A stretch of DNA of 64,000 nt, from contig NZ_JALJQZ010000010.1 of NCBI RefSeq assembly GCF_022968395.1, positions 1 to 64,000 of the forward strand, given 5' to 3'. Shown in pieces: positions 3,050 to 21,131 of this stretch. The notes below the pieces were generated by a model, which worked only from the letters and a program-made list of their open reading frames with translations, had not been told where the DNA came from and did not search any database. The translations under genes and the position numbers were made by a program. This DNA is from Affinirhizobium lemnae. GTDB taxonomy: Bacteria > Pseudomonadota > Alphaproteobacteria > Rhizobiales > Rhizobiaceae. Position 1 is the stretch's first letter. The number at the start of each line of letters is the position of its first letter.

Positions 3050-3051
3050 TC

Positions 3052-6043: not shown

Positions 6044-6273
6044 GCAAGCTGAAGCTCGGCCCGATCACCGAGACCAAGCCGGTCAAGGTCACTCTCGAAC
6101 TGCCGGCCGCCTTGCATCGCGATCTCACAGCATATGCCGAGATCCTCGGACGCGAGGCCGGACACCCGCCGACCGACCCCATTCGCCTGATCGTCCCCAT
6201 GCTGGAACGCTTCATCGCCACCGATCGCGGCTTCGCCAAAGCGCGCAAGTCAGCGCCGAATGCGGACCGTTAA
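6040..6273 (+). CDS. DUF2274 domain protein
   Basis: A 77-residue protein whose whole length matches the DUF2274 type found directly after trbI in many alphaproteobacterial ICEs (LKLGPI at the start, KVTLELPAALHRDL, then a helical end containing PIRLIVPMLERF). The predicted beta strand followed by helices looks like a ribbon-helix-helix DNA-binding fold, so an autoregulatory role on the transfer operon is possible but unproven. The ATG overlaps the trbI stop (ATGA). No function is experimentally assigned to the family as far as I know. Confidence 0.8.
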   Translation: MSKLKLGPITETKPVKVTLELPAALHRDLTAYAEILGREAGHPPTDPIRLIVPMLERFIATDRGFAKARKSAPNADR

Positions 6274-6282
6274 GGAGGGGGC

Positions 6283-7342: not shown

Positions 7343-9018
7343 ACATGCAATCGCCCTCCATCGCCCAGCGCGCCGCTCTTTATCTCCGTGTCTCGACCAC
7401 CCGCCAGGCCGAACATGACGTCTCCATCCCCGATCAACGTAAACAGGGCGAAGCGTATTGCGCCTCGCGCGGGTACGAACTGGTCGAAACCTTCGTCGAG
7501 GCCGGCGCATCCGCCACCAACGATCGGCGTCCGGAATTTCAGCGCATGATCGAAGCGGGCACGACCAAACCGGCCCCCTTCGATGTCGTCGTGGTCCACT
7601 CGTTCAGCCGCTTCTTCCGCGATCACTTCGAACTGGAATTCTACGTCCGCAAGCTCGCCAAGAATGGCGTGAAGCTCGTCTCCATCACGCAGGAGATGGG
7701 TGACGATCCGATGCACGTCATGATGCGGCAGATCATGGCGCTGTTCGACGAGTACCAATCGAAGGAGAACGCCAAGCACGTCCTGCGCGCCATGAACGAG
7801 AACGCGAGGCAGGGCTTTTGGAATGGCGCGCGGCCGCCGATCGGCTATCGTATCATCGCTGCCGAACAGCGTGGGTCGAAGACCAAGAAGAAGCTGGAGA
7901 TCGACCCGCTGCACGCGGAAACGGTCCGGCTCATCTATCGCCTGTTCCTGGAAGGCGATGGCATCTCTGGCCCGAAAGGCGTCAAGGCAATTACCACCTA
8001 CCTGAATGAACGCCGCATTTTTACCCGCGATGGCGGGAAATGGGGCTTGGCGCAAATCCACGCCATCCTGACCCGCACGACCTATATCGGCGAGCACAGG
8101 TTCAATACCCGGTCTTTCAAGAATCGCGAGAAGAAGCCGGAGAGCGAAGTAGCGATCATGGCGGTTCCATCGCTGATCGATCGCGACATCTTCGATGCGG
8201 TTCAGGCCCGCCTCAAGTCCCGCAACCCGATGGTGATCCCATCGCGGGTCACGAGCGGTCCGACGCTCCTGACTGGCATCTGCTTCTGCGCAAAGTGCGG
8301 CGGGGCGATGACAATGCGTACCGGCAAGGGCAGCGCGGGCGGCATGTATCGCTATTACACCTGCTCCACCAAGGCCCGGCAGGGAAAGGCTGGTTGCGAA
8401 GGTCGCTCGATCCCGATGGACAGGCTCGACCATCTGGTCGCCAGCCATCTCGAAGAACGCCTGCTACAGCCAAAGCGGTTGGAGACGATCCTTTCCAGCC
8501 TTCTCGACCGCCGGCAGGAGCGAACCGAACGCCGTCGCGAACATCTGGCGGATCTCCACCGGCGAATCACGGAGACCGATCAGCGGTTGGGCCGGCTCTA
8601 TGACGCGATCGAATCAGGCGTGGCCGCGCTCGACGATGTGGGCCTCAAGGACCGCATCGCCGGCCTCAAGGCGATCCGGGACCAGGCGGCGGCCGATGCC
8701 GAGCGGATACGGGCGACGCTCGACGGCTCGGGCGACAGGGCCGTGACACCGGACATGATCGACACGCTGTCTGCCGCGGCGCGCGGTAGCCTGCGGATCG
8801 AAGGAGGCGGCTATCGGCGGGATTACCTGCGCGCCTTCGCGCAACGCGTCGAGGTCGCGGACGATGAAATTCGCATCATGGGGACGAAATCGGAACTGCT
8901 GCAAACGCTCGTCGCCGCTTCCAGCGTGGAATCGGCGGCAATCGGCGTTCGCAGTTCTGTACTGAAATGGCGCACCCGAAGAGATTCGAAAACCTTCAGA
9001 GAGCGCCCATTTCACTGA
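7339..9018 (+). CDS. Large serine recombinase
   Basis: The 559-residue product has the serine recombinase catalytic domain (LYLRVSTTRQ with the nucleophile at Ser19, and the Arg-containing SFSRFFRDHFELE segment). A recombinase domain follows (about 170-290), then a zinc ribbon (CFCAKCGGAM near residue 316 and a later Cys pair) and a coiled-coil end. This is the phiC31/TP901 type that integrates and excises mobile elements. The final codons run into the 25-bp tRNA-Arg-derived repeat at 8966-8990, and the last nine residues and stop are encoded by DNA of the neighbouring element. The gene overlaps the HTH gene by 4 bp. It may be the ICE integrase. Confidence 0.9.
   Translation: MNMQSPSIAQRAALYLRVSTTRQAEHDVSIPDQRKQGEAYCASRGYELVETFVEAGASATNDRRPEFQRMIEAGTTKPAPFDVVVVHSFSRFFRDHFELEFYVRKLAKNGVKLVSITQEMGDDPMHVMMRQIMALFDEYQSKENAKHVLRAMNENARQGFWNGARPPIGYRIIAAEQRGSKTKKKLEIDPLHAETVRLIYRLFLEGDGISGPKGVKAITTYLNERRIFTRDGGKWGLAQIHAILTRTTYIGEHRFNTRSFKNREKKPESEVAIMAVPSLIDRDIFDAVQARLKSRNPMVIPSRVTSGPTLLTGICFCAKCGGAMTMRTGKGSAGGMYRYYTCSTKARQGKAGCEGRSIPMDRLDHLVASHLEERLLQPKRLETILSSLLDRRQERTERRREHLADLHRRITETDQRLGRLYDAIESGVAALDDVGLKDRIAGLKAIRDQAAADAERIRATLDGSGDRAVTPDMIDTLSAAARGSLRIEGGGYRRDYLRAFAQRVEVADDEIRIMGTKSELLQTLVAASSVESAAIGVRSSVLKWRTRRDSKTFRERPFH
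8966..8990. repeat. Left attachment-site repeat (25 bp, copy of tRNA-Arg 3' end)
   Basis: These 25 bases are identical to 21053-21077, which cover the CCA end, acceptor strand and part of the T arm of the tRNA-Arg gene. Sequence diverges on both sides of the match. A tRNA 3'-end copy in direct orientation about 12.1 kb from the intact tRNA beside an integrase is the usual signature of att sites. The copy lies within the 3' end of the serine recombinase gene. Confidence 0.88.
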
Positions 9019-9095
9019 TTTCGTTGGAGAATTTTCCCTGCCAACTGTTGTCTGTGTACCAATGTGGTGGACCACCCGTCAAGGGTTGACGTGCC

Positions 9096-9482
9096 TTATT
9101 CCGGTCCTCCCGCAGCCGCCTTCTTCATCTTGGCGGCCTCACGTACCTCTTGAATGTAGGTGAATGCCGTAAACGCCAGCCTCACTGGAAAGTCGGCAGG
9201 CCATACATCAGGAAGCTCAGGGGCGGCTTCATAGCGCAAAGCCTCCTCCTGCTCGACGAAGCACTCCACGCCGTCATGCATGGCTTGTAGAGTGTTCCTC
9301 GTCTCTTCGAGGATGTTGCTTGCTCTTGGCAGTCCGAAGGCCCCCATGTGGTGGATTGCGGTTAGCGTGTGGATCAACCAGTGTTCCCACTTTTTGAAGC
9401 GCTTGTGCTCGGCAGCTTTCATTCGATTTCGAGGGACAATCTTCAGCTCGACAATTTCCGCGTTGTGGTCAGTCATTCTCAT
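9096..9482 (-). CDS. Hypothetical protein of the phage-derived element
   Basis: I do not recognise this 128-residue protein. It is predicted soluble and mostly helical, with a basic N-terminus, several His and Trp residues (KKWEHWLIHTLTAIHHMG) and a Lys/Ala-rich C-terminus. The start is supported by an AAGGAAGG ribosome binding site 7 bases upstream. It is the gene closest to the left att repeat, a place where phages often carry accessory or host-modifying cargo. No function is proposed. Confidence 0.55.
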   Translation of the reverse strand: MRMTDHNAEIVELKIVPRNRMKAAEHKRFKKWEHWLIHTLTAIHHMGAFGLPRASNILEETRNTLQAMHDGVECFVEQEEALRYEAAPELPDVWPADFPVRLAFTAFTYIQEVREAAKMKKAAAGGPE

Positions 9483-9530
9483 GTTGGGCCTTCCTTGAAA
9501 TTGGTTTCGTTGTGGAACGAGGAGGTGCGC

Positions 9531-9767
9531 TTAGCGGGTAGCAAGCGTGTCCGATACAGGCTTCGAATGCCTAAGGAACATGGCGTGCATCGTTCGCAGT
9601 AGGTGCAGTTCGATGATGAGATGCTTGTGGCCCCGCCACAGCATTACGCCCCCGGCAATCCACATGGCGTCAAAGAAGCGCCCCGGTCTGGAGGACGTTA
9701 CGTCATCAGACGAGAAGAAAAAGTCACAGATGTAGGGGATGTTGAAGCTGACGATGAATGGACCCAT
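9531..9767 (-). CDS. Small hypothetical protein
   Basis: A 78-residue product without recognised family. A strong GGAGG site lies 5 bases before the ATG, which is the main reason for calling it. The sequence is rich in Phe, His and hydrophobic residues but shows no clear transmembrane helix. It lies 48 bp upstream of the 128-residue gene on the same strand and may be co-transcribed with it. Confidence 0.45.
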   Translation of the reverse strand: MGPFIVSFNIPYICDFFFSSDDVTSSRPGRFFDAMWIAGGVMLWRGHKHLIIELHLLRTMHAMFLRHSKPVSDTLATR

Positions 9768-9925
9768 GTTTGCCTCCGTTATGCTGCGTCATGCTGCTGG
9801 CAGAGGCTTATGAGTCAAACCGCAAATCCTGTAAAGATAAATAAAATCATTCACTTACGGGTTTATCGCACAGGTGGATAGATCCGGGATTGCCGCACGG
9901 GAGCTTAAGGAACGGCTTCGGTGTT

Positions 9926-9950
9926 GAAAAACTGGCCTCTCAGAGGGCCA
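9926..9950 (-). terminator. Intrinsic terminator downstream of the small serine recombinase
   Basis: On the minus strand TGGCCCTC and GAGGCCA can pair around a TGA loop with one bulged base, followed by GTTTTTC. It lies about 90 bp after the recombinase stop codon. Confidence 0.5.
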
Positions 9951-10041
9951 CTGAACCAGCCCTCATGTGTCAGCTTACGTGGCTCGCTTTGGTGATCTGC
10001 CGAAAAGCAATCGATACGCCCGGAGAGAAGCGCGGACGCGA

Positions 10042-10680
10042 TTAAGCGAGCCCCCAAGTGGCAAGCAGAGCTTCAGCCTTCGCGGGGTCTTGCTTGATGC
10101 GGAGAACGGTCTGCCTTGTGAGACCCGTCACTCTTGCAATCTCGCTGACGCTCGTCGCTCCGGTTCCGAGCATATCAATGACGGCATTGAACGACTTCCG
10201 GTCATAGCTCGGCTTTCTCCCGAGGTAGGTTTTGCCTTCCGCTTTCGCCGCCTCGATACCGGCCCGCTGGCTGGCTTTCGTTGCCTCGTGCTGTGCCTGT
10301 GCGGTTGCCGCCATGAACGCAATGAGCGCGTCTCTCACAGCCATCTGAACGGGGTCCGTGGTCGAGCCGTCAAAGGTCATGTTATTGATGACCGTGCGGA
10401 TGATGACGCCACGCCCCATGAACTCTCTGATGATGTCCGTAACGTCTTGGTAGTTTCGCCCGAGGCGGTCCACCCAGCGCACCACGAGGGTGTCACCCTT
10501 GCGCAGCATGTCGAAGAGCCGCTTGCCTTCAGGACGCTCTCTGAGGGCTGTGGATGCGCCTGAGACGCCATGGTCACTTACCACAGCGTCAATGACGAAA
10601 CCCGCCTGCTCGGCTTGTGTCTTTTGGTGATGAAGGGTCTGGTCCGCTGTCGAGACGCGGGCATAGAGGATAGTGGACAT
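10042..10680 (-). CDS. Small serine recombinase of the resolvase/invertase (Hin/Pin) family
   Basis: The 212-residue product has the full catalytic domain: ILYARVSTADQ with the nucleophile at Ser10, the conserved VVRWVDRLGRNYQD segment, and a long E helix. A C-terminal helix-turn-helix follows (about residues 160-195, ATSVSEIARVTGLTRQTVLR). Such enzymes invert or resolve DNA between short sites. The ATG at 10680 is preferred over an upstream in-frame ATG because AGGAAG lies 6 bases before it. Repeats at 10709-10755 just upstream look like its binding site. It may invert a segment or resolve element dimers. Confidence 0.9.
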   Translation of the reverse strand: MSTILYARVSTADQTLHHQKTQAEQAGFVIDAVVSDHGVSGASTALRERPEGKRLFDMLRKGDTLVVRWVDRLGRNYQDVTDIIREFMGRGVIIRTVINNMTFDGSTTDPVQMAVRDALIAFMAATAQAQHEATKASQRAGIEAAKAEGKTYLGRKPSYDRKSFNAVIDMLGTGATSVSEIARVTGLTRQTVLRIKQDPAKAEALLATWGLA

Positions 10681-10708
10681 GAAGCTTCCTGACTGACCGT
10701 ATGGATTG

Positions 10709-10755
10709 TGTCCGCAGAAATGCATGTCCGTAGAATGAAGTCAACCCTTACGGAC
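10709..10755. repeat. Candidate res/inversion site: TGTCCGYAGAA repeats
   Basis: TGTCCGCAGAA at 10709-10719 and TGTCCGTAGAA at 10725-10735 are direct repeats 16 bp apart. A partial inverted copy (TTACGGAC) follows at 10748-10755. They occupy the leader of the small serine recombinase gene, the usual place for resolvase sites that also repress the gene. Function is inferred. Confidence 0.4.
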
Positions 10756-10796
10756 GGTCTTTGTGGTCAGCATGAAGATGTACGCTGAGGTATACT

Positions 10797-11372
10797 TCAA
10801 CGGTCATCAGTCGAGCCGTGAGTAAGAAGGTTCTCCGTAATCCTGCTGCGAATGGCTTCAGCGACGAGGTCTGCCTCTTTCATAAGATCAAATACTTTTC
10901 TCCGAATTTCCCGATAACGCTCCAGTTCGTCCGCCAGCTCATTCTTCAAGTGATCATGGATGTGCTCGGGAGACTTGAGAGGCGCGAGGAAACTTTCGAT
11001 GCGAGCAGCTCTTTCTGCCTCATCAGGAGGAGCAAGCTTGGCCAACCAGTGCCGCCAGTTGTCCTTACCCTTCCGTTCATTGCAGCTACGACAACAAGGC
11101 ACTAAATTTCGGATGTAGTGCCCGTATCCCGAGAACTCACCATCAACGACCCTATTGAACACGTGGTCCCAAGTTTGCGCAGCGTCACCGCAATAAACGC
11201 AGTTGAGGTCATCTTCAGGGTCTTGGCCCAGCTCACGTAAACCGTCAGCGACTGCTAATGGAGAGTACCTGTCCTGCGGAGCGAGCGCAGAGGCAAATGC
11301 ATTCGAGAAGGTGCTCTTCCTGCTCATGACGGTGTGACGTTTAAGATACTTCTTGATGGTGTCCATTTTCAT
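10797..11372 (-). CDS. HNH endonuclease
   Basis: The 191-residue protein contains a clear HNH core: a zinc-binding CVYCGD pair (Cys58, Cys61), the catalytic TWDH (His70), and NLVPCCRSCNERKGKD with Cys94, Cys97 and Asn98. A helical C-terminal half follows. HNH proteins of this size in phages act as free-standing homing endonucleases or packaging-associated nickases; neither can be chosen here because no terminase is present. A GGAGG site lies 12 bases before the ATG, somewhat far. The gene is downstream of two candidate phage promoters at 11831-11877. Confidence 0.85.
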   Translation of the reverse strand: MKMDTIKKYLKRHTVMSRKSTFSNAFASALAPQDRYSPLAVADGLRELGQDPEDDLNCVYCGDAAQTWDHVFNRVVDGEFSGYGHYIRNLVPCCRSCNERKGKDNWRHWLAKLAPPDEAERAARIESFLAPLKSPEHIHDHLKNELADELERYREIRRKVFDLMKEADLVAEAIRSRITENLLTHGSTDDR

Positions 11373-11830
11373 ACTTGTCTCAATCCTCCGTATGCGAGCG
11401 TCGTGTATCGTAGCCGTCTGCGGATTCTAGGCCGCCTCACTGCATTAGGCAGGGCACGGGGGAAACTACAAGCAAGTCCAGTCGAGGCTGACGCTCGGAT
11501 TTTTGCCGCCAACTAAACGGCCCATTTCGGACCACGTGACGCCCTACTTCGCATTTTCCCAGATGGGGCAATAATAGCTTGGGAGACCACCTACCAACGA
11601 AGGACGTGAGGAGGCGGGGTGGTCGGTGAAAATTGCTCAATTGCATCGGAGAATAGGTGTCGGAGGATGCTGGTGGCGGTCAATCCCTCACTCCCCCTTT
11701 AGGTTATCCTTTAGGTCTCCTATCTCTCACCTCTATCTGTTCACTCTCACTATCCACTCCCATCATCAGAAATAGGATCAGGGAGAGAGAGGGTATTCTC
11801 ACATCCCCTCTCCCTCACCTATTTATCACT

Positions 11831-11853
11831 CTCTCCTAGGGTGGGCCCTAATT
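11831..11853 (-). promoter_or_regulatory. Candidate T7/K11-type phage RNA polymerase promoter
   Basis: On the minus strand the site begins AATTAGGGCCCACCCTAGGA and continues GAG. Compared from memory with the phage K11 promoter (AATTAGGGCACACTATAGGG), 18 of 23 positions agree, including the recognition half and the TAGG initiation region. It is the best match of four related sites in this element. Confidence 0.6.
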
Positions 11854-11855
11854 GA

Positions 11856-11877
11856 CGACGTTAGGTGGGCCCTAATC
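11856..11877 (-). promoter_or_regulatory. Candidate phage RNA polymerase promoter, tandem copy
   Basis: The minus-strand sequence GATTAGGGCCCACCTAACG shares 13 consecutive bases (ATTAGGGCCCACC) with the site at 11831-11853, which starts 24 bp further along. The initiation half is less conserved, so this may be a weak promoter or a degenerated duplicate. Confidence 0.45.
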
Positions 11878-11904
11878 ACCTGTGGTCTGTCCGTCGTGCG
11901 GCAA

Positions 11905-12459
11905 TCAAGCGGGCCACTTGTAGGCATTGTGTCCGATCAAGTCCAACGAACCATCAAGAGGGCGTGTCATATCGACCGTCGTGGCCATCTCACCGCCATC
12001 GGTGAAAGCACTTTGAAATGCCGCCATCTCGACGGTCCATCCGCGTTTGTGAGCAATATTGACCAGAGGGATAAAATCGCGGTCGCCTGACGCGATAACA
12101 AGAACTCCTGTATTTGGGCCGGTCGCAACGGCAAGGGTCCCCTGAGCGACGAGCTCCGTATCCACAGCCTTCTCTTTGTTCTGGGAGTCGCGGTCATGGG
12201 TGATGACTTCAAAGCCACCGTTCTTGGCCATTTCCCAGACATCGTCTTTCGGCGGCGGACGAGAACCTACCAGAAAGGCGGCGTGGATGTTTCGCCCATT
12301 CGCAAGCACCTTCAGGAGCTTGGCAAAGTCAATACGCCACGACGGATCGGCGGGACGCTTGCCGCCAGCTTCAGCAGGTAATTGCCCCTTGCGAAACGCC
12401 GAAGCCTTCTGGCCCTCAATGAATATATTCGAGTTGTCCACAAGTATGATGCAGTCCAT
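11905..12459 (-). CDS. NYN-domain (LabA/DUF88-like) PIN-fold nuclease
   Basis: The 184-residue product is one NYN domain. It has the first acidic residue in ILVDNSNIF (Asp8), the central acidic KAVDTELV (Asp100) and the SGDRDFIPLV motif (Asp126, Asp128), which together form the metal site of PIN-like ribonucleases. Family members are RNases or degenerate RNA-binding proteins. A strong GGGAGGA site lies just before the ATG. The stop codon of a preceding interrupted frame (12469) abuts this ribosome binding site, suggesting an operon. In a phage element it could act on host or competitor RNA, but this is speculation. Confidence 0.85.
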   Translation of the reverse strand: MDCIILVDNSNIFIEGQKASAFRKGQLPAEAGGKRPADPSWRIDFAKLLKVLANGRNIHAAFLVGSRPPPKDDVWEMAKNGGFEVITHDRDSQNKEKAVDTELVAQGTLAVATGPNTGVLVIASGDRDFIPLVNIAHKRGWTVEMAAFQSAFTDGGEMATTVDMTRPLDGSLDLIGHNAYKWPA

Positions 12460-12468
12460 GGTTCCTCC

Positions 12469-12804
12469 CTACCTGTGTCTGATGGATGTATCATTAATCG
12501 AAGGTAAGAAACTGTCTAGCTGCCAGCACAACTTGCACCGACTTTTATTGACACCCTGTTTGTACACGTCCACCCAAGTGTCCACCTTAGGACCACCAGT
12601 GAACTTCTTACAGGACTTCCTCAGCTCGGCATTGGCCTCATAGTGGTCTTGAGCTGTCTTCCGGGTGTCCTTGCTATCTCCGCAGTGTCTTCGGAGTGCC
12701 AGCTAAATTACCTGTTGATGGCATTCGGCCATCACCCGGCCCCACTCCGCTAGAGTGACTACAAGAACGAGGGTCACGGTAAGCACCACCGTGGCCCTCA
12801 CCAT
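12469..12804 (-). pseudogene. Small membrane-protein frame interrupted by an in-frame amber codon
   Basis: From the ATG at 12804 a 33-codon frame encodes a membrane-type N-terminus (LTVTLVLVVTLAEWGRVMAE). It meets TAG at 12703-12705 and then stays open for 77 more codons to TAG at 12469. The second part looks protein-like (DHYEANAELRKSCKKF, a CKLC pair) and stops just before the NYN gene's ribosome binding site. One membrane helix followed by a charged helical domain resembles phage lysis accessory proteins (spanins) in outline only. It may be a nonsense-inactivated gene, a readthrough gene, or chance. No good ribosome binding site precedes the ATG. Confidence 0.35.
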
Positions 12805-12870
12805 TTTCTGACGTGTTGTGGGCTTAAGTAATATACCTACGTACCCCCCTAAGCGGCCTCAAACGGTCCA

Positions 12871-13512
12871 TCAAGAGAACCAAAGTGAACCGGGCTTCCT
12901 CTTCAATTGCGCTTCCCTGCATTCCTTCCATCTGGCCTTTTCCCTCTGACGCTCCCCAAGATAGCGGCTCACGAGCTGCTGACTGACATCAAGGATCGTG
13001 GCAATGTCGGAATGGCTGAGCCTCGGGAAGAAGTGGTTCAGCCACGAGACCATCTCCGTGACCTCCATGTCTGGCGGGTTGTCTTCGCGATGTGCAAACC
13101 GTTCGCGGATAGAACGTCTGTAGCTGTTCCGACCGTCTCGGAAGCTTTCCAATGCCGCTTTGGCTTCCGCCACCGGACCATTCTCTTTCAGCTCAAGCGA
13201 GCTTGTTGCTTGAGACCACCGCTCCGCTATCCAGTCTCTGGCAAGAGGGCTGATGACATCAAAAGGAATGGTCCCCTTCGCTTGAATGCGTTTGCCCCAA
13301 CCTTTGGCCGTCACCCATGGGCAGAGCCTATGACGATGTTGTCTTCCCCCGCCTTCGATTTGCAGAAAGTCCATGTGCCGAAGGATGATCCTAATGCGGC
13401 GAGGGCCGACTGAGTGAAGTTCCGCCAGTTCAGTGATGGTGATCCAATCCCCGTCTTCGACAAGGACAAGTTCCCCGGTCTTTCTATCGAGGAGCTGGGA
13501 GGTATAGAGCAT
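12871..13512 (-). CDS. Phage-type protein with predicted DNA-binding region
   Basis: I do not recognise a named family for this 213-residue protein. It begins with a short beta segment, then ITITELAELHSVGPRRIRII, which looks like a helix-turn-helix. The C-terminal part has a second HTH-like stretch (SHSDIATILDVSQQLVSRYL) and a basic tail. This two-HTH outline suits a transcriptional regulator. The ATG at 13512 was preferred over a longer frame because TAGGA precedes it at good spacing and the extension would overlap the terminator at 13536-13568. Confidence 0.6.
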   Translation of the reverse strand: MLYTSQLLDRKTGELVLVEDGDWITITELAELHSVGPRRIRIILRHMDFLQIEGGGRQHRHRLCPWVTAKGWGKRIQAKGTIPFDVISPLARDWIAERWSQATSSLELKENGPVAEAKAALESFRDGRNSYRRSIRERFAHREDNPPDMEVTEMVSWLNHFFPRLSHSDIATILDVSQQLVSRYLGERQREKARWKECREAQLKRKPGSLWFS

Positions 13513-13535
13513 GTGTGATCCTACGGTTGTTGGAA

Positions 13536-13568
13536 ACAAAAAGCCCCCGCTCTGGTGAGAACGGGGGC
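13536..13568 (-). terminator. Intrinsic terminator after the second Rha/KilAC gene
   Basis: On the minus strand GCCCCCG pairs with CGGGGGC around a 12-base loop and is followed by TTTTTG. It lies about 40 bp beyond the stop codon of the gene at 13607-14335. Confidence 0.85.
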
Positions 13569-13606
13569 GCTGAGGGTGGGTGATGAGGAGATGAACGAGA
13601 GCTGAC

Positions 13607-14335
13607 TTAGGTGGATGTGGTCGGGCGTCCCATCTCATCGCAGCCCTTGCGCATGGTCAGCTTGCCAGCCTCGTAGAGCTGCACCAGCAGTGCCTTGCCT
13701 TCCGCCGTGGGGAAGATGTCTACGCTGCCGAACTCAGCCAGCGCCTTCTCGGTGAAGACGTTGCGGTGCTTGGCATAGACGCGATAGGTGCCGCCCTGCT
13801 TGTAGAAGTAGCCGAGCCGCATCAGGTCTTTCTTGATGGCTTTCTGGTTAATGCCGTCCAGCGTGCGGATGAACCGGCTGAGGCTGTGGTTGTGGGAGAC
13901 TACGCGCTCGGCAATAGCAAGCTGAGGCTTGGCCTCTTCGAACTTTTGCTCGGCTAACTGCTTCGCTTTCCACTCAGCAGCCCACGCAATAGCGGCCTCT
14001 GCCGGGTCTGCGAAGTTGGGTATTGAAAGCATGGTGACCGGCTGGTGCGTGTCCTTAGCTTCCAGTTCCATCCACCTGTCGATGATGCGGGTGCGGAGAG
14101 TGACCGAATAGCCGGAGACGAGGATGAGGGTTTCCCGCTTGGGGAGTAGGTATTCAAGCGAAGGGCGGCCACCAGTAGAAGGGACGACCTTTTCTTCAAG
14201 TTTGAGGGAAAGCTCTTGCGCCATGTTACGAACATCACGGCGAACGTTATCGTGTGTCTTGCCGGTCAGCTCTGCGATTTCACGGCTGGACATGGTGAGA
14301 GTGGAAGCGGTGTTCAGGTTCACCATCTGGTTCAT
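13607..14335 (-). CDS. Rha family regulator / phage antirepressor with KilAC-like C-terminus
   Basis: The 242-residue protein has an N-terminal Rha-type domain (MSSREIAELTGKTHDNVRRD, then the RPSLEYLLPKRETLILVSGY region). Its C-terminal domain has the antirepressor KilAC pattern (KKDLMRLGYFYKQGGTYRVY). Such proteins control phage development, often by opposing a repressor. Of two nearby ATGs the one at 14335 was chosen because AAGGA is 8 bases away, against only 2 bases for the ATG at 14341. It has its own terminator, like the other Rha gene at 18457-18894, suggesting independently acquired units. Confidence 0.8.
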   Translation of the reverse strand: MNQMVNLNTASTLTMSSREIAELTGKTHDNVRRDVRNMAQELSLKLEEKVVPSTGGRPSLEYLLPKRETLILVSGYSVTLRTRIIDRWMELEAKDTHQPVTMLSIPNFADPAEAAIAWAAEWKAKQLAEQKFEEAKPQLAIAERVVSHNHSLSRFIRTLDGINQKAIKKDLMRLGYFYKQGGTYRVYAKHRNVFTEKALAEFGSVDIFPTAEGKALLVQLYEAGKLTMRKGCDEMGRPTTST

Positions 14336-14517
14336 TTGCATTTTCCTTGAAGTCAGGTGCGTAAAGACGCTGGGTTCAGTGGTGATTGCGGTTTGCCCAC
14401 GCGCCGTTCAGGTCACGCAGGGTCGAAGCCGAGGGGATGTTGATGAGCTGTTCCAGAAGCCACGGCAGCGCGGCCCAGAAGGACCACGAGCCAACAGGAA
14501 AGAGGCTGGGATGATCA

Positions 14518-14552
14518 GCACCCCCGGAGCTTTTACTCCGAGGGATGCTTTT
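14518..14552. terminator. Stem-loop directly downstream of the gp16-like gene
   Basis: GCA-CCCCCGGAG and CTCCGAGGGATGC pair with one bulge around a TTTTA loop. Four T residues follow on the plus strand, whereas the minus strand, used by the genes here, lacks a T run after the stem. It could be a phage polymerase terminator or an RNA processing signal. Confidence 0.4.
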
Positions 14553-14561
14553 GATACTGCC

Positions 14562-17500
14562 TCACCACGAGGAGCTTCGTGTCCGTTCCGGCTGATGACG
14601 GATCAACGAGTTAACCAGAGGCTGAACGCCGATGACGTTCTGGAAAGGCATGATGCGTTGCAGGGCTCTGATTTCGCTCTGCGACCAGCCCCCCTGTCGG
14701 ATTGCACGACCAATCCCGTGGCTGGCCTTCAAGCCAGTGCTCGCCAGATCAAAGGTAGGATTGCTGAAGGCGTTAGATGCCAGACCTGACGCACGGTCTT
14801 CAAACCAAGGCTTGAAGCTCGTCACATACAGGCCCGTATCGATGATGGTGGGCATGATGCTCGACCATTCGCCACGCTGAACCATTGCCTTTGCAATGCC
14901 GCTAGGGCTCAACTTCTCCTCCAAGTAGTCCTTCTGGTCCGAGCGGCCCGTAGAGTTGAGGTACTGCTGAGCCGTGTAGACCATGCCACCCACCACCGAA
15001 GTGGTCATAAAGGAGGCGAAGGTGTTGAAGTCCATGTGGTGGAGGTTGCGAAGAAGCTGGTTCGTCCATGCATTCATCATGAAGTTTCGGAACTGAAGGA
15101 TGGTGCGGGCCATCGGATGCGAGAGCATCACGTTCCCCTGCCCCACCACGTTGTCCTGAATGACCATTCGGCTCCACCTCCACACAGCCGTGCGGAAGTG
15201 CGAGAGGGCTTCCTGATCATCCCACTTGCCGAAGTTTCCTGCGAGATATTTCCGGCTGGAGATTGCGCCATCCTCAAAGTCCGCGTGCTTCCTGATCTGA
15301 GCGAACACGCGATGGGCCATGTCATCGTCCAGTCCGAGGGCACGCATACGGTTCATGTTGAGGCCCTTGACGCTACCCCCTTCGGCTGTCTTCGCGGCTG
15401 CGTTGACAATCTTCATGACCGCTGCTGCGGATGCCCAGCGCCGTGAGAACGTGTCCACGGTGCTCATGCCAGAGACCACGTTGGTGATCCGCTTGCCGGT
15501 GTGCAGAAGGTCATCGACCTTGTTCCACCGCTGGCCGTTGGCGCTCCGGTTGATCATCTCACCCATGTCGTCAAGGTGATGCCTGAAGCCGTCACGGAAC
15601 CAGTCCGCACCGAAGCCTGAAAGCTCCTCCATCTCGCGAGCGAACGATGTTTGGAGCTGGCCGGTCTTCGCGTCACGCAACATGGCCCTGAACGAGGGCA
15701 TCCCTTCGAGTGCAGCCTTGAGGCCAATCTGAGTTCCCACGCCCAGCATTTCACCAAGCTGCGCAAGGCCGACTTGGTTCATGACGCGGGTGTAGTTGTA
15801 GCCGTGAACGGCACGAGCCCACTTCGCGAGGTTCGGGAACTTGGTCTGATCCGGCGTGCCGGTGATCCGGTCGTAGATGAACTGGAGCCGAGCCTCGTCC
15901 GCATTCGCTGCCTTCATGCGGTCAGCGTGCGGGATGTGGGTCTTGGCATCCCAGACAGAACGCATCTCACGAACGAACTTGTCGAACTCACCACGCGAGG
16001 TGATGCCATCGACAAGGAACTCAGCAGCGTGAGGATTATCTGCGCTGTAGAGCGGGTTCTTAATCCGCATCATCGCCATGCCAATCTGGCCGGACATCTG
16101 ACGGGAATAGCTCTTGAAGCCATAGAGGTAGTCGTCCTGAAACAGGTCGGCCATCCTCAGCTTCTCCATCTCCCCCGTGCTCTTGTTGCGGACCATCATC
16201 TCGAAGTTGTTGTCGTAGAGCGCCTTGCGCTTCGACCGGGCCGTGCCGCCTTCCTTCGAGGGCTTGGGCTTCGCCACGCTGATGACCTTCTGGATGTCAG
16301 CGTCCGAGAGGTCGATGTCCTGTAACGCCTTCTTCAGGGCCTCCATATCGTTGCCATGAAGCACCCTATCGAGGTTGCTCATGCCAGCCGTAGCTTCTCG
16401 GAGGGTGCGCCAGTAACCCTTGCCCATTCGACGGGCCAGCTCTTCGCCCAGCTCGGGCACCTTCCGAAGGAACGCTTGGGCCACGAACTCACGCATCGTA
16501 TCGTCACCATAACGGACGCTGTGTGCGTCAATCTTCTGGTGGTCCGCGATGTTGGGCCGATAGGGAGCCCGGTCCACGTTCTCGAAGCCTGCCACCGCTC
16601 GACGCTCTGAACCATCCAGCAAGCCGGGGTTCTTGAGGTATTCGAGGTAGTCAGCATAGCTCTTGCGGATGAGGTCACCCTGCTTCTTCACGGCAGCGTC
16701 CCATTCCTTTTCAGGACGAACGTTGTCGAGATAGTTGGTGACCAGCTTCTTGAACTCCACCTCAGCCTCGTCCTTGCCCGCTCCGGTGATCCCGCGAGAG
16801 GTCATGAACTCGTTGAAGTGCTGAACGTGCCCTTGCTCGGCACGCATGGAGAAGTCGAAGTCGAGCTGCTTCTGCCACTCTTCGGCAGCGATGTGGGATA
16901 CCTTCGTCTTGTCGGCATTGCCCACAACGTCCACCACAGCGTGGCTTGTGAAAGCTCGCGTTGCGGGGTTCTCGGAAGCCTTACCCTTGCCAGCCACATC
17001 CCAGCGGATGCGAGAAGCCCATGAGCGTTCAATGGCATTGTCCACCGCACCGTGAAGCCAGTCTTCGCCAGCGTCAGTGAGCACGTCACGGGAGCTTACT
17101 CGGGCAGCACCAGCGGAACCGGGAAGGTCCACAGAGCGGAGCATGGTGCCCGCCTTCAGCTCTTCCTCAGCATGGGCCTGAAGGCTCTTGCCGATGCGGA
17201 TGTACTCGGCACTCTCTTGGGCCAGTGCGGGGTTCTTGGCGAATGCACCGAAGGCACCACCGAGGGCCGCACCTGTACCAGCCGCCCACAGCAGGTCAGT
17301 TCCGTTCGCTGATGGCTTGTAGGCCACGCGAGGGATTTCCGTGAGGGTGTTGATGAATGCGCCCTCAGCGGCCTTTATGCCGACCTTAGCGAGCATCCCA
17401 CCGTATTTCGGGAGGCTCACTTCAGGGGCCAGCAGGAGGAGTGCCAGGTTGTCGATGGTCGTGAGGCTCGCACCGACACGCAGGCCCGTGCCTGTCCAGC

Positions 17501-18368
17501 CCAGACCCTCCATCTTCTTCTCATAGTCCACGTCAGCGAGGATGCCCTCTTTGATCTGTTCGAGGTGGGCCTGAGAGTGCGCCTTACCGAGCTGGGGCCA
17601 GAATTGCTCTGGCACGCCAGCCTTGGCAGCGTTGAGGATGTCGGGAGTGGGTTGCCAGTTTGGATCAGGAAGGAGGTCCGTGCGGCCCTTCATCATCCAA
17701 TTGATCATGCTTTCGTCCTCGCGAGCGGCCTTGAAGGCATCCCACTTCGAGTCGAACGCAGGTGCCTGAGCGGCCTGCTGTGCATTGAACTGGTTCATCT
17801 CGACATCAGTGGTCACCGCACGCGGAGAAATCGGATTGTCGAAGGAGACCTTATCGCCGTTCGGGGTGGAGGAAACGGACTCGCGAGGGATGTTCCCACG
17901 GTCAATCTGGGGATAACTCATGTTGCCACCGAAGATGGCCTTAGCGTTCGCCAGACGGCCAGCCCAATTGTGGCCCGCTGTGGGGTTGTTCCGGCTGTAG
18001 CCGCTGGGACGTTCGAAGTGCATGAATGCAGCAGCCGCTTCGTCCACTGTAGTGGCAGCTCTCAGGCGGCTGGCCGCGTAGCTCTCGGAAGTCTCCAGCT
18101 CGTGTTGCGCGAACTCAAGCTGGGTGTCGAAGTCGAGGTGGTCCCGACCGTTGTTCTTCGCCCACTGGATGAGCTTGGGTCTCCGGTCGTTCCACTGAAA
18201 GATGCCGAGGGCTGCACCGCTGTCGCCTACTGCACGTTCGTTTAGTCCCTTGCCGCTTTCGGCCTGTCCGTTACCGACGATGCCAGCGGCCTGTGCAGGG
18301 CTCCACCCCTTCGAAACGAAGAAGTCGAATGCCCTTTGGGCTCTGTCGTTGATGTTGGATTGTCTCAT
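14562..18368 (-). CDS. T7 gp16-like internal virion (DNA ejection) protein with lysozyme-like domain
   Basis: The 1268-residue product is close in length to T7 gp16 (about 1,318 residues). Residues 10-110 form a phage tail lysozyme/transglycosylase-type domain: VGNGQAESGKGL with the likely catalytic Glu37, then ALGIFQWNDRRPKLI. The remainder is long and helical with a hydrophobic, glycine/alanine-rich stretch around 380-440, as in ejection proteins that cross the envelope with the genome. The ATG at 18368 follows a GAGGATC site; a longer in-frame extension would overlap the Rha gene. It is the only virion-type gene in the element. Its stop is followed in frame by 61 open codons. Confidence 0.75.
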   Translation of the reverse strand: MRQSNINDRAQRAFDFFVSKGWSPAQAAGIVGNGQAESGKGLNERAVGDSGAALGIFQWNDRRPKLIQWAKNNGRDHLDFDTQLEFAQHELETSESYAASRLRAATTVDEAAAAFMHFERPSGYSRNNPTAGHNWAGRLANAKAIFGGNMSYPQIDRGNIPRESVSSTPNGDKVSFDNPISPRAVTTDVEMNQFNAQQAAQAPAFDSKWDAFKAAREDESMINWMMKGRTDLLPDPNWQPTPDILNAAKAGVPEQFWPQLGKAHSQAHLEQIKEGILADVDYEKKMEGLGWTGTGLRVGASLTTIDNLALLLLAPEVSLPKYGGMLAKVGIKAAEGAFINTLTEIPRVAYKPSANGTDLLWAAGTGAALGGAFGAFAKNPALAQESAEYIRIGKSLQAHAEEELKAGTMLRSVDLPGSAGAARVSSRDVLTDAGEDWLHGAVDNAIERSWASRIRWDVAGKGKASENPATRAFTSHAVVDVVGNADKTKVSHIAAEEWQKQLDFDFSMRAEQGHVQHFNEFMTSRGITGAGKDEAEVEFKKLVTNYLDNVRPEKEWDAAVKKQGDLIRKSYADYLEYLKNPGLLDGSERRAVAGFENVDRAPYRPNIADHQKIDAHSVRYGDDTMREFVAQAFLRKVPELGEELARRMGKGYWRTLREATAGMSNLDRVLHGNDMEALKKALQDIDLSDADIQKVISVAKPKPSKEGGTARSKRKALYDNNFEMMVRNKSTGEMEKLRMADLFQDDYLYGFKSYSRQMSGQIGMAMMRIKNPLYSADNPHAAEFLVDGITSRGEFDKFVREMRSVWDAKTHIPHADRMKAANADEARLQFIYDRITGTPDQTKFPNLAKWARAVHGYNYTRVMNQVGLAQLGEMLGVGTQIGLKAALEGMPSFRAMLRDAKTGQLQTSFAREMEELSGFGADWFRDGFRHHLDDMGEMINRSANGQRWNKVDDLLHTGKRITNVVSGMSTVDTFSRRWASAAAVMKIVNAAAKTAEGGSVKGLNMNRMRALGLDDDMAHRVFAQIRKHADFEDGAISSRKYLAGNFGKWDDQEALSHFRTAVWRWSRMVIQDNVVGQGNVMLSHPMARTILQFRNFMMNAWTNQLLRNLHHMDFNTFASFMTTSVVGGMVYTAQQYLNSTGRSDQKDYLEEKLSPSGIAKAMVQRGEWSSIMPTIIDTGLYVTSFKPWFEDRASGLASNAFSNPTFDLASTGLKASHGIGRAIRQGGWSQSEIRALQRIMPFQNVIGVQPLVNSLIRHQPERTRSSSW

Positions 18369-18383
18369 GATGATCCTCAAATG

Positions 18384-18411
18384 AAAAACCCCGCAGCGGG
18401 AAGCTACGGGG
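18384..18411 (-). terminator. Intrinsic terminator between the Rha gene and the gp16-like gene
   Basis: On the minus strand CCCCGTAG pairs with CTGCGGGG (one G-T pair) around CTTCCCG and is followed by TTTTTC. It lies after the Rha gene and the candidate promoter at 18430-18452 and 16 bp before the gp16-like start codon. Confidence 0.75.
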
Positions 18412-18429
18412 CCGGAAGGAAAGGTTTGG

Positions 18430-18452
18430 ATTTCTTCGGGTGGGCCCAAATC
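18430..18452 (-). promoter_or_regulatory. Candidate phage RNA polymerase promoter before the gp16-like gene
   Basis: On the minus strand the site begins GATTTGGGCCCACCCGAAGA and starts 4 bp after the Rha stop codon, 62 bp before the gp16-like ATG. It shares GGGCCCACC with the sites at 11831-11877 and most of its length with 18939-18961. A terminator lies between it and the gene, so it may instead drive a short RNA or rely on readthrough. Confidence 0.5.
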
Positions 18453-18456
18453 GATT

Positions 18457-18894
18457 TCAGGCGACCACCCGAGGGCCGTGTTCGGTTGCCAGAGCGCGGA
18501 GCCTGAGACCGTCGAGCTGGAACTCTCGAACCACGTTGGCACCGAAGGCTTTGCTGCGGGCTGCGTGGTGCAGGGCCCGCTCCATCTCATTGAAGCGGGT
18601 GATGTAGGCCAGCTTGAAGTGCAGCGCCTTAGCTCCGGTGAAGCCCATGGCGAGGAGCGTGAAGCCGTCTCGGGAGATGTTGAAGGCGCGACTTCTGCGG
18701 TATCCGAAGCCGACTTTGACCGCCACTTCAATGGCCCCAAAATTGGGGGCAATGGTGGGCTCAGCTTCTAAGAGCGCGTCGATGTCGCGGAGAACGTGGT
18801 CGTGCCGCTTCCCGAATAGCTCAGCCACGTTGGCGCTTGTGGTGACCGGCTGGCCGTTCTGAAGGGTGACGATAGGGGTGATTGCGTGGGTCAT
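18457..18894 (-). CDS. Rha family phage regulatory protein
   Basis: The 145-residue protein matches the Rha family along its whole length: PIVTLQNGQPVTTSANVAEL, FGKRHDHVLRDIDALL, the YRRSRAFNISRDGFTLLAMG segment and a KLAYITRFNEME helix. Rha proteins are lysogeny-linked regulators first described in lambdoid phages where host factor IHF is involved. An AAGGAACCCC site precedes the ATG. A candidate phage promoter lies 45 bp upstream and a terminator follows, so this looks like a self-contained transcription unit. Confidence 0.88.
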   Translation of the reverse strand: MTHAITPIVTLQNGQPVTTSANVAELFGKRHDHVLRDIDALLEAEPTIAPNFGAIEVAVKVGFGYRRSRAFNISRDGFTLLAMGFTGAKALHFKLAYITRFNEMERALHHAARSKAFGANVVREFQLDGLRLRALATEHGPRVVA

Positions 18895-18938
18895 TCTGGG
18901 GTTCCTTGCGCCTCGCTGTCGCGGGGTTCAGCGTCCAG

Positions 18939-18961
18939 ATTTCCTTGGGTGCGGCCAATTC
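18939..18961 (-). promoter_or_regulatory. Candidate phage RNA polymerase promoter before the Rha gene
   Basis: On the minus strand the site begins GAATTGGCCGCACCCAAGGA and ends AAT. Eighteen of 23 positions agree with the site at 18430-18452, including the conserved CACCC core. It ends 45 bp before the Rha start codon. Confidence 0.45.
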
Positions 18962-19002
18962 ACTTTCAACCCTGAAGTGACCGGCAAGATACATCGGGGG
19001 CC

Positions 19003-19200
19003 TCAGACTGAGGCGTTGTAGGCGAACACACCCGCCCAAACGGAAGCGGCCAAACACGCCCCTTTGATCACAGGAGAAAAATAGGAAAGCCTGATGAGCA
19101 CGAACATGGTTCTGCTCACGCCACATAGAAAGCCAGCCAAAATGGCGAGAAGGAAATTGACGGCAACGAATGCGCCGATAGCGGCTAAAACAGGAACCAT
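19003..19200 (-). CDS. Small predicted membrane protein
   Basis: A 65-residue frame with two hydrophobic segments (about residues 3-27 and 40-62) separated by a short basic loop (RTMFVLIRL). This is the size and topology of holin-like or other small phage membrane proteins, but no family is recognised. The ribosome binding site is weak. The stretch just upstream contains AATTAGG, distantly like the candidate phage promoters. The call is tentative. Confidence 0.4.
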   Translation of the reverse strand: MVPVLAAIGAFVAVNFLLAILAGFLCGVSRTMFVLIRLSYFSPVIKGACLAASVWAGVFAYNASV

Positions 19201-19345
19201 ACCAGGATCAGACCTAATTGAAGATGGTAGTGTCCGCTATCAGACACCATGAGGGCCACTGAAGTCCCCAGATGGGCGCGTGAACGCAACTACGACAGCG
19301 GCCAGAGAAGCCGATGGCTTCGCGCCATGAGCCCACCAAGGGGCT

Positions 19346-20974
19346 TCAGTCCCCATCCTTCCTTCGGGGATCAATTGCCGGTAGTTTCTTTATCTCACGC
19401 AGCAGTGCAGGAGGCTCAAACTCGCCATATTTACGCCCCTGCGCAGGCGAAGTGTGTCCGCAAATCGCATCAAGATATGCGTCATCCACCCCTGCCGTCC
19501 GTCCCTTGGATTTGAACCAATGCCGCCAAGCGTGGTTCGGGCCTATTCGCGGGTCGGTAACCTTGGCTGTACCTCGCACCCACTCGCCAAGTATCTGGAC
19601 AGTCTGCACCCAAGGCTGGCCGGAAGTCAGATTGCCGTTGTAAAACAGAGGTCCGGCTTTTGCTCTCTTGGCGTATTCCCAGATGCCTTGCTCTAATAAA
19701 TGCGGATGCAACGGAACATGGCGGAACTTCCCTGTCTTGATCGTTCCGGCATCAGGGAGCAAGGCGATGCACCGAACGCCATCAATCTCTATGAAATCCT
19801 CCTTTCGAAGCTGGCATACCTCGCCTGCACGCGCACCAGTATACGCGCAAATCCACGGCACCCATCGCATGGCTGCGCGATTGGCTTCGGAATAGTTGTT
19901 TTCGACGGTAAGCGCATCCAGCGCACACCGAAGGATGCTATGAGCCTCATGAACGAAGAAGCTCTTAGGCCGACTCTGGGTCTTTTTCGGTCCCTCTAGC
20001 AGTAGCTTCTCAGCGGGATTGTCCGTGACCAACTTCCCGCCCTGCGCGGTCATCCCGTAAGCGTATATGGTACTGACCGCTGCTCTGTAAGCTTTGATGA
20101 AGGTGTCATGAGACACCGCCCCTGATGTCGTCAATTCTGAATGCCAGCGAACAAGGTCCGCATCGGTTACCCGAGAAGCGTCGTCATGCCCTAGATAGGC
20201 GATGAGCTGCTTCACAATGCCCGTATAGCGGATGATAGTTTGCGGCTTTGGCTGCTTCAGCCGGTTCGACCAAGCGGACAGTAGCTTGGTGAGGCTTGGC
20301 CCTTGGCTCTCTGGTGCTTTGGGTTGGTCCGCTGGGATGTAAGCAGGAAATCGACCGCCCACGGTATCTACACCGAAATCACCCTGTGCCCGCCTTTCCA
20401 GTAGGTCCGCGACATCAGCGGCGGCACGGTCGAACTCAACCAAAAGACGCTGATAAGTAGCTTCGGTGACGGTGAGATGATGCTGCGAGAGCGCGCCATC
20501 AACCCATGAACCAAGGCGCTCAGAAAGGCTGGGTGCTGTTCGAAGCCTCAGTTCAGATAATGCAGAGCCGATATGACGTTGCTCTTCAGCTTTACGCTCA
20601 CGTTTGCGTGCAGCCCACAAAGCGGCTTCGCCGGGGTCATCCTCCAGCACCTGCCGGATTGTATGGTACATCTGACCTGAGAGAGCGACGATTTGCTTCA
20701 GGGTCAGAGAGACTGGACCTTGCTCGAAGCTCAGCCAAACCCGGTCGAACTCTGCCTGAGCCTCACCAGCCAGACGCTTGGCCTCCAAGGGCACCTTTGT
20801 CCGCAATGACACCTTGAGATCGTCTCCAATGGTTGGTGACGATGAATGTCCGTCGATTAAGACGGTTACAACTTTGCCCTTTGCTGCTGACTTAAGTCGC
20901 GTCGGCACTCGTTGACGATACCAATAAACGCCAGTCGCCGGGTGCTTATATGGTGAGGGCATAGAAAGAACCAT
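19346..20974 (-). CDS. Tyrosine site-specific integrase
   Basis: The 542-residue protein has an N-terminal domain with the GVYWYRQRVP pattern (DUF6538-like), a SAM-like core-binding domain (about 225-330) and a C-terminal catalytic domain. Visible catalytic residues are Arg382 in YTGARAGEV, the HAWR box (His481, Arg484), His507 in CGHTS and the nucleophile Tyr516 in GRKYGEF. It should integrate the 12.1-kb element at the tRNA-Arg 3' end, from which its start is only 78 bp away. The ATG at 20974 was chosen because AGGTGG lies 6 bases upstream; the longer frame would start at GTG. Confidence 0.93.
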   Translation of the reverse strand: MVLSMPSPYKHPATGVYWYRQRVPTRLKSAAKGKVVTVLIDGHSSSPTIGDDLKVSLRTKVPLEAKRLAGEAQAEFDRVWLSFEQGPVSLTLKQIVALSGQMYHTIRQVLEDDPGEAALWAARKRERKAEEQRHIGSALSELRLRTAPSLSERLGSWVDGALSQHHLTVTEATYQRLLVEFDRAAADVADLLERRAQGDFGVDTVGGRFPAYIPADQPKAPESQGPSLTKLLSAWSNRLKQPKPQTIIRYTGIVKQLIAYLGHDDASRVTDADLVRWHSELTTSGAVSHDTFIKAYRAAVSTIYAYGMTAQGGKLVTDNPAEKLLLEGPKKTQSRPKSFFVHEAHSILRCALDALTVENNYSEANRAAMRWVPWICAYTGARAGEVCQLRKEDFIEIDGVRCIALLPDAGTIKTGKFRHVPLHPHLLEQGIWEYAKRAKAGPLFYNGNLTSGQPWVQTVQILGEWVRGTAKVTDPRIGPNHAWRHWFKSKGRTAGVDDAYLDAICGHTSPAQGRKYGEFEPPALLREIKKLPAIDPRRKDGD

Positions 20975-21052
20975 GTGTGCCACCTTTGTGTATCAAAAGC
21001 GGCAGGGAATTCATTAGGAAAATCAGATTGTTGTTTCCCATCAGTGAGATGG

Positions 21053-21077
21053 AATGGCGCACCCGAAGAGATTCGAA
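21053..21077. repeat. Right attachment-site repeat within tRNA-Arg
   Basis: This 25-bp sequence is identical to 8966-8990. It comprises the 3' end of the tRNA-Arg gene plus two flanking bases. The tRNA remains intact on this side, so the element's integration preserved tRNA function. Confidence 0.88.
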
Positions 21078-21131
21078 CTCCTGACCCCCAGATTCGTAGT
21101 CTGGTGCTCTATCCAGCTGAGCTACGGGTGC
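21055..21131 (-). tRNA. tRNA-Arg (anticodon ACG)
   Basis: The minus strand folds into a complete cloverleaf of 77 bases including an encoded CCA end. It has acceptor GCACCCG pairing with CGGGTGC, a D arm with GCTCAGCTGGATAGAGC, an anticodon stem CCAGA/TCTGG around loop CTACGAA (anticodon ACG), and a T arm with GTTCGAATC. The 3' end is the integration target of the adjoining tyrosine integrase. Confidence 0.97.

Follow-up and report, generated by a model that had tools for sequence, protein, structure and literature searches.

The DNA analysed here (the window) comprises 64,000 nucleotides of Affinirhizobium lemnae (contig NZ_JALJQZ010000010.1, positions 1 to 64,000) and forms the start of a 148-kb contig. 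It contains an integrated element of 12.1 kb (8963-21082) that carries a gene for an ejection (internal virion) protein related to gp16 of phage T7, with an N-terminal lysozyme-like domain (14562-18368, minus strand, 1268 aa). The element is bounded by direct repeats of the 3' end of a tRNA-Arg gene (33 nt, 91% identity), one located within that gene (21050-21082; gene at 21055-21131, minus strand) and the other at the distal end (8963-8995). The gp16 open reading frame (ORF) reads from an ATG at 18368 to 14562 with zero stops; upstream of this ATG the frame stays open to 18752, and the plus strand over the same interval contains 8 internal stops. The N-terminus matches Phage_lysozyme2 (Pfam, E 1.1e-30), and the protein is a full-length match to the phrog_342 profile "internal virion protein with endolysin domain" (E 4.7e-130), residues 114-1264 aligning with positions 153-1230 of 1235. 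A first-pass annotation, made from the sequence, had described an uninterrupted 1268-residue ORF with a lysozyme-like N-terminus at these coordinates within an element of about 12 kb; the coordinates hold, the strand is minus, and the measured element is att-flanked with an integrase inside. A single-protein search of viral contigs with the window gp16 gave zero matches; an alignment-based search did match.

Leftwards from the tRNA, all genes are on the minus strand and begin with a tyrosine integrase of family F1 (19346-20983; DUF6538 and Phage_integrase, the latter below the Pfam cut-off; PHROG integrase, 4.9e-24) and a 145-aa Rha-like ORF located upstream of gp16 (18457-18894), which has a family F13 match at the homologous position of C97, a sister copy in the same genome. 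Downstream of gp16 are a Rha-like regulator (13607-14341; Phage_pRha, 3.3e-14; phrog_63 antirepressor, 1.4e-36), a 255-aa protein of family F4 (12871-13638), an NYN-domain protein (11905-12459; Pfam, 2.4e-12), an HNH nuclease-like protein (10797-11372; Pfam score slightly below the cut-off), a small serine recombinase of the invertase/resolvase type, family F2 (10042-10725; Pfam Resolvase, 5.5e-28), a 78-aa ORF, and a 128-aa protein of unassigned function (9096-9482; no Pfam/PHROG match) that is 97% identical in C97. All window ORFs of at least 180 aa could be assigned to a family, the 255-aa one, without a Pfam/PHROG match of its own, solely through a relative (in L092) with a winged helix-turn-helix match. 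When reference proteins of the rhizobial T7-like phages Pasto and RHEph21 (portal, scaffold, capsid, tube A/B, gp14, gp15, gp16, terminase, RNA and DNA polymerase, fibre) were searched against the window at E 1e-5, gp16 was the single match, and Pfam/PHROG scans of the main ORFs of the window detected no capsid, portal or terminase. This agrees with the first-pass proposal that capsid, portal, tail and terminase genes are gone and gp16 is the sole virion gene. The element does not look like a T7-like prophage, since neither an RNA polymerase gene nor any head, tail or terminase gene of this type was found in the window.

The non-coding DNA of the element contains promoter and right-end signals that were not part of the first-pass annotation. 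The main T7-type promoter-like site, AATTAGGGCCCACCCTAGGAGA at 11853 (minus strand, 18.3 bits with the matrix described below), has a partial copy 24 bp upstream (11859-11877, minus strand), forming a double site at 11835-11877; it is followed by approximately 170-190 nt homologous to the right end of T7-like phages (11660-11853 including the promoter). A similar double layout was observed in the phage L103 and in the elements L072 and L200. A second site, GATTTGGGCCCACCC (18434-18452, minus strand), ends 65 bp before the start of gp16 and has motif counterparts in C97. A weak promoter-like site precedes the 145-aa gene (18943-18960, minus strand), matching a loose pattern only and scoring below 12 bits.

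Six element-phage pairs compared in DNA were similar only in gp16 and its edge, save for 69 bp common to the element L074 and the end of the phage contig L127, about 950 bp past the terminase gene; the core of this segment has what we take to be the build of a T7-type promoter. In the 4.85-Mb genome of the host, ATTWGGGSCCACC occurs in 5 copies, of which three lie in the window element and the other two in C97 (0 in a backward control). The window promoter class, AATTAGGGCNCACNNTAGG, was found in 36 stretches of viral contigs, 35 of them within 11 contigs measuring 39.9-41.7 kb, all on the plus strand as listed, and 34 of the 36 have matches to T7-like proteins. The motif therefore represents a T7-like phage promoter class. 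The exact window promoter had 0 matches in viral contigs, and no site of this type was seen in the DNA read of phages L101 and L102. Phage L103, among the nearest by gp16, has a site just past its terminase gene with 4 mismatches to that of the window, and a looser pattern admitting this variant matched the viral contigs once, on L103; as the pattern was drafted after the L103 site was known, this match was expected and only the absence elsewhere is informative.

A position weight matrix (PWM) was built from 11 phage sites (8 located past the terminase gene of 7 phages, and 3 other RHEph21 sites). A pattern match past the terminase gene was present in 17 of 46 phage loci, and training sites were chosen among these by eye; the L127 training site has the same sequence as the site of element L074. 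Leave-one-out scores of the training sites were 9.4 and 17.5-32.4 bits. At 12 bits or more, a threshold picked by eye, 41 sites were detected in 20 of 39 elements (476 kb) vs 4 in 412 kb of flanking DNA and a mean of 3.3 in shuffled sequences (20 sets). At 10, 11, 13, 14 and 15 bits the elements had 54, 47, 38, 35 and 29 sites and the flanks 7, 6, 2, 1 and 0, respectively. Sites occurred in 9 of the 22 elements sampled by their integrase and in 11 of the 17 others; in six of the scanned "elements" (L070, L074, L077, L079, L084, and L086), the stretch of DNA taken has no proven att pair. Eight sites of at least 12 bits are clustered within about 560 bp in L205:9253-9814 (G429), an element without gp16.

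The non-coding DNA past the double promoter of the window, promoter excluded, was best placed in the 40-kb RHEph21 genome at 38851 (+), right after the terminase gene, with a score of 70 (next 41, mean 24.3, standard deviation 5.3), and also right after the terminase gene in the phage L120 (61, next 38). The corresponding region of C97 scored 67 in RHEph21 and 61 in L120, and in Pasto, where the promoter lies 229 bases from the record end, it was best placed at the right end (54, next 47). The regions of elements L072 (47, next 40) and L200 (62, next 54) were best placed at the right end of L103 and not of RHEph21. Based on the promoters and the right-end homology, the element and T7-like phages appear to have regulatory or packaging-type sequence in common. 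CCTAAAG heptamers near the right-end copy (two in the window, one in C97) were considered as T7 end repeats and discarded, being absent there in the phage loci examined.

The sister copy in the same genome, located on contig C97 (L003:244-9481), is flanked by tRNA-Ala repeats of 17 nt and matches the window copy in blocks of 77-95% DNA identity. Its gp16 is reduced to the first 23 codons, joined straight to the Rha upstream region with a 4-base overlap at the junction; since these codons are retained, gp16 was once present there and has since been lost. A promoter-like site precedes the remnant (L003:3283), the counterpart of the window site at 18434 plus one extra G. The integrase of C97 is distant from that of the window (18% identity in the alignment), and the recombinase end is 92% identical in DNA.

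A profile search of genome contigs recovered 33 loci containing relatives of gp16. In 13 of them gp16 is accompanied by T7-like head or tail-tube genes; no such gene was found in the DNA read at the other 20, two of which have gp15 or gp14-gp15. Eighteen of these 20 loci were clustered by ORF together with the window and C97: over the resulting 20 loci, integrase family F1 occurs in 17 and serine recombinase family F2 in 15, and 16 of the 18 relatives have F1 or F2. Nine compact gp16 elements of 12.3-18.9 kb are bounded by exact repeats (L069, 14.8 kb; L072, 13.0; L075, 12.3; L083, 12.7; L085, 18.9; L087, 12.9; L088, 13.9; L091, 14.0; L092, 14.8). Among the hosts in the record titles are Bradyrhizobium, Devosia, Aureimonas, Methylobacterium, Bosea, Aliiroseovarius, Pontivivens, Thalassobius, Ruegeria, and Mesorhizobium. 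In the genus of the window, the complete T7-like prophages (G157 and G191) encode a different integrase, near tRNA-Leu. Defence-like cargo was seen in some members of the family: a PtuA-like protein in L091, an OLD/GajA-like protein in L092 and a helicase in L085 (strong matches for 3 of 10 proteins scanned). Family F8 (L079, L088, L092, L100, and L205) was examined as a T7-type scaffold and found no support in this role, with no profile match and a best blastp E of 0.054.

For the comparison of gp16 sequences, ORFs shorter than 900 aa were dropped; a contig end truncates L095, L100 has a 111-residue match only, and L096/L097 were left out. Among the 17 element gp16 ORFs longer than 900 aa, 16 are intact (1255-1421 aa), the exception being the split ORF of L083. 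A tree of 17 element and 52 phage proteins, computed by a quick method, contains at least nine changes between element and phage labels on supported branches; the window gp16 clusters with the phage contigs L101-L103, and those of L085-L088 form an element-only clade at about 72% identity. The gp16 proteins of L069, L074 (615 residues) and L091 are 83, 86, and 78% identical, respectively, to proteins adjoining T7-like genes. Judging from the tree, the gp16 of these elements has been captured repeatedly. The dN/dS ratios were 0.13-0.31 in six element pairs, 0.06-0.33 in six element-phage pairs (0.30 and 0.33 for the window) and 0.11-0.17 in five phage pairs, with dS partly saturated (values above 1 are near saturation). 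The element gp16 is kept by purifying selection, the constraint being perhaps slightly weaker than in phages; the earlier suggestion that its retention implies selection is supported by ratios well below 1 and by the 16 of 17 intact ORFs.

Sampling led by the integrase was chosen to avoid selection by gp16. An integrase profile searched against 397 genomes of the order matched at 1e-60 in 76. The 49 loci read represent 40 of 52 listed places plus 9 places of the same genus; the list leaves out the own genome, G584, G547:C15 and G512, several of the 12 unread places lie at contig ends, 5 of the 49 loci are shorter than 10 kb owing to contig ends, and some samples share descent (L227/L228). The portal, scaffold, capsid, tube A, tube B, terminase, and RNA and DNA polymerase proteins of Pasto and RHEph21 (tblastn, 1e-5) matched 0 of the 49 loci, and 18 loci extended to 30-40 kb still showed zero head, tube, terminase or polymerase matches. 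Across the prophages compared, conservation is higher for portal, capsid and terminase than for gp15 and gp16; therefore, detection bias runs against the observed pattern. Repeats of a tRNA bound 24 of the 49 loci within 20 kb (weak or very short in L198 and L234) and 11 further loci after extension (weak in L209); some related elements reach 19-28 kb and other members are as small as 4.5-8 kb. The F1 integrase family marks compact tRNA-integrated elements of Alphaproteobacteria.

A virion gene of ejection type or tail-fibre type was detected in 10 of the 49 loci, one of these a weak match: a T7-type fibre of 467 aa in L195, gp15 in L200, L212, L227 and L228, a weak gp14 match (36 bits) in L239, and an internal virion protein of PHROG 6651 in L220, L221, L225 and L233. 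The latter came from a scan of 7 large ORFs in 6 loci, in which L237 gave no match and L238 a family of unassigned function. The other element ORFs scanned against PHROG/Pfam comprise antirepressors, RNase H, nucleases, integrases and one phrog_2825 "polymerase" match; no capsid, portal or terminase was among the families listed (four alignment scans list the 25 commonest of 47, 37, 34, and 39). The PHROG 6651 proteins have 1351-1626 aa, and three of the four loci are repeat-bounded with 19-20 kb. The fibre of L195 (L195:9315-10718, G194) is 74% identical to that of RHEph21 in its N-terminal part and has a small gene downstream, in a 13.1-kb element lacking gp16. In L212:4903-7740 (G352), a gp15-like protein overlaps a lysozyme-like domain otherwise found on gp16, which suggests domain exchange between ejection proteins. 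The gp15 of L227 and L228 (G578, G444) is 51-52% identical to rhizobial phage gp15, and in both loci a further integrase shares 55-56% identity with that of Pasto, indicating some exchange with T7-like prophages.

Altogether, we consider it likely that the window element is a satellite of T7-like (autographivirus-type) phages, triggered by the RNA polymerase of the helper and supplying its own ejection protein. In the mechanism proposed, the element would remain silent in tRNA-Arg until a T7-like phage infects the cell. The single-subunit RNA polymerase of the infecting phage may then read the element promoters, activating gp16 from the site at 18434-18452 and, from the double site at 11835-11877, the operon of the HNH and recombinase genes. 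The integrase would excise the element, as suggested by the att sites, and the right-end copy (promoter plus about 190 nt) could let the replication/packaging machinery of the helper accept element DNA. By analogy with the tape measure protein of the satellite PLE11, the element gp16 may be built into the helper-derived particle as its DNA-ejection protein. The first-pass annotation had listed a satellite placing its own ejection protein into helper virions among several options; this has become the best-supported one, and the presence of gp16 in virions is still an inference. With less assurance, the balance of the evidence leans towards an undescribed, widespread satellite family of Alphaproteobacteria, triggered by the helper polymerase via copied promoters, in which a copied right end would take the replication/packaging end of the helper, and the particle would be re-armed with the element's own gp16, gp15, gp14 or fibre, a part specific to each element and recaptured from local phages. 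The collection of such elements across genomes, proposed earlier as a check, did recover recurring compact elements without head genes; it also showed that the gene is not uniformly retained, being lost in C97, split in L083 and a fragment in L100.

Several observations weigh against this interpretation. The gp16 gene is dispensable for persistence of the element, C97 having lost it; in L083 it is split over two frames, L100 keeps only a 111-residue match, and tblastn detected no virion gene in five elements measuring 2.9-6.0 kb. Apart from the window, long gp16 matches in the 57 genomes sampled from the genus were limited to the prophages G157 and G191, four more matches being short. Regarding the signals, the two remaining promoter copies of the window have 4 mismatches each to the main copy, 19 of the 39 elements have no site at 12 bits and L205 alone contributes 8 of the 41. 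The window right-end DNA had no clear placement in Pasto (43 at the left end, 41, 39), in L103 it (47) and that of C97 (55) were best placed at the right end on the opposite strand, and the placement is weak for L072, L200 and L212. Packaging genes of the PICI/P4 type (terS, ppi, sid, psu) were not named among the families listed in the general Pfam/PHROG scans, which included no dedicated models. As for resident helpers, none of 22 element-host genomes, the own one among them, gave a match for a T7-type RNA polymerase, and 2 positive controls did. The portal search (PF12236) had no match in 14 named control genomes and was therefore repeated using G157 and G191 as positive controls; a T7-like portal is absent from the own genome, and 3 of 19 element hosts have one elsewhere (G584, G595, and G603). 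No T7-type polymerase was found in the two of these portal-bearing hosts that were checked by genome (G584) and locus (L075, L091); therefore, no fitting resident helper was found.

The main rival explanation, which we regard as unlikely, is phage-triggered interference, in which gp16 induced by the phage polymerase enters or disturbs virions or ejection and makes them non-infectious, the element being a defence island. The phage-type promoter-like site before gp16 would make expression infection-triggered, some family members have the defence-like cargo described above (L091, L092, and L085), and satellites are reported to carry tail-assembly interference systems (PMC11364771). However, sabotage needs no full-length gp16 with a hydrolase domain, and the element proteins keep both under a constraint similar to or somewhat weaker than that of phages; the copy of the phage right end would also be needless. 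Interference and satellite spread are compatible, and the same system might produce interference as a by-product. The intact lysozyme-like domain and the same promoter-like site would likewise fit abortive lysis, with phage-triggered gp16 breaking the cell wall early and killing the cell before progeny mature, but conservation of gp16 spans its long C-terminal part, and the gp15, gp14 and fibre genes of other elements point to virion use, which makes this explanation very improbable.

Just as improbable is that the element is the remnant of a decaying T7-like prophage. The adjacency of gp14, gp15, gp16 and fibre genes in T7-like genomes, the gp16 deletion in C97, the split gene in L083, the 111-residue match in L100 and the Pasto-like second integrase beside gp15 in L227 and L228 count in favour of decay. 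A continuum of decaying complete prophages under relaxed selection, which the first-pass annotation had named as the finding that would speak against its proposal, did not appear: in this genus, complete T7-like prophages carry a different integrase by tRNA-Leu, one integrase family and one serine recombinase family prevail in the clustered loci (17 and 15 of 20), head, tube, terminase and polymerase references matched none of the 49 integrase loci although such genes are better conserved than gp15/gp16, and gp16 is under purifying selection, with dN/dS far below 1, within element-only clades. Least probable of all is that the element is a small autonomous phage whose capsid went unrecognised. 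The function of many phage protein families is unassigned and some related elements reach 19-28 kb, but each window ORF of at least 180 aa has a family, the scans of other elements listed no capsid, portal or terminase family, and members can be as small as 4.5-8 kb.

PICI and P4-like satellites carry an integrase, regulators and cargo, and no virion assembly genes of their own; the same holds for the window element. The rhizobial T7-like phages Pasto and RHEph21 and the prophages G157 and G191 have a gp16 homolog in common with it, and RHEph21 also the right end and promoter type, but they encode head, tail and terminase proteins, an RNA polymerase of their own and a different integrase. Packaging genes of PICI and P4-like satellites include terS, sid, and ppi (PMC10803314). 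PICMI satellites of Vibrionaceae resemble the window element in being small, integrated and dependent on a virulent phage without capsid-remodelling genes, and differ in their integration at fis and their three core proteins, with no virion protein mentioned in the text consulted (PMC10803314). PLE11, a PLE satellite of the Vibrio cholerae phage ICP1, builds its own tape measure protein into chimeric tails with helper parts (PMC12987554). By description, the likeness lies in a satellite-encoded virion protein of the ejection path, the helper of PLE11 being a virulent phage; the difference lies in a contractile-tailed helper and a tape measure, as opposed to a T7-type core protein and a presumed link to a single-subunit RNA polymerase for the window element, and the text consulted on PLE11 mentions no T7-type promoters (PMC12987554). 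A literature search covering few subscription papers and preprints gave, among the matches listed, no satellite of a T7-like phage, podovirus ejection-protein satellite or helper-RNA-polymerase trigger. Phage satellites are known as a kind; novelty appears to lie in the type of helper, the trigger and the virion part that is swapped. The work on PLE11 (2026) established that satellites can supply an ejection-path protein; the window family, if true, would be a podovirus counterpart in several families of Alphaproteobacteria. It would make testable the question of why satellites swap the cell-entry part of the virion yet steal the shell, and the promoter signal would provide a sequence test for locating such satellites and their helpers in genomes.

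Additional observations were made on related loci and on the surroundings of the element. Elements L085-L088 encode an F10 P-loop protein of about 465 aa with an F11 partner of 129-158 aa upstream of gp16 and a weak origin-binding-protein match. In Aureimonas flava (L075:14061-22866), a second element with integrase and recombinase lies in tandem behind the gp16 element with the same 25-nt repeat. In G100, outside all counts, gp16 is split across two contig ends, one with an F1-like integrase and a recombinase. The Stenotrophomonas loci L096 and L097 had no T7-like head genes in the DNA read. An element-type gp16 with recombinase was also detected in a 10.4-kb contig of a cyanobacterial assembly (Nostoc favosum record, L084), possibly a contaminant contig. 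To the left of the window element (1-9018) lie conjugation genes (homologs of TraG, TrbL, CagX and TrbI) and a large serine recombinase (7339-9018), not phage genes; the end of this recombinase overlaps the far att repeat, so that two mobile elements abut at one tRNA site.

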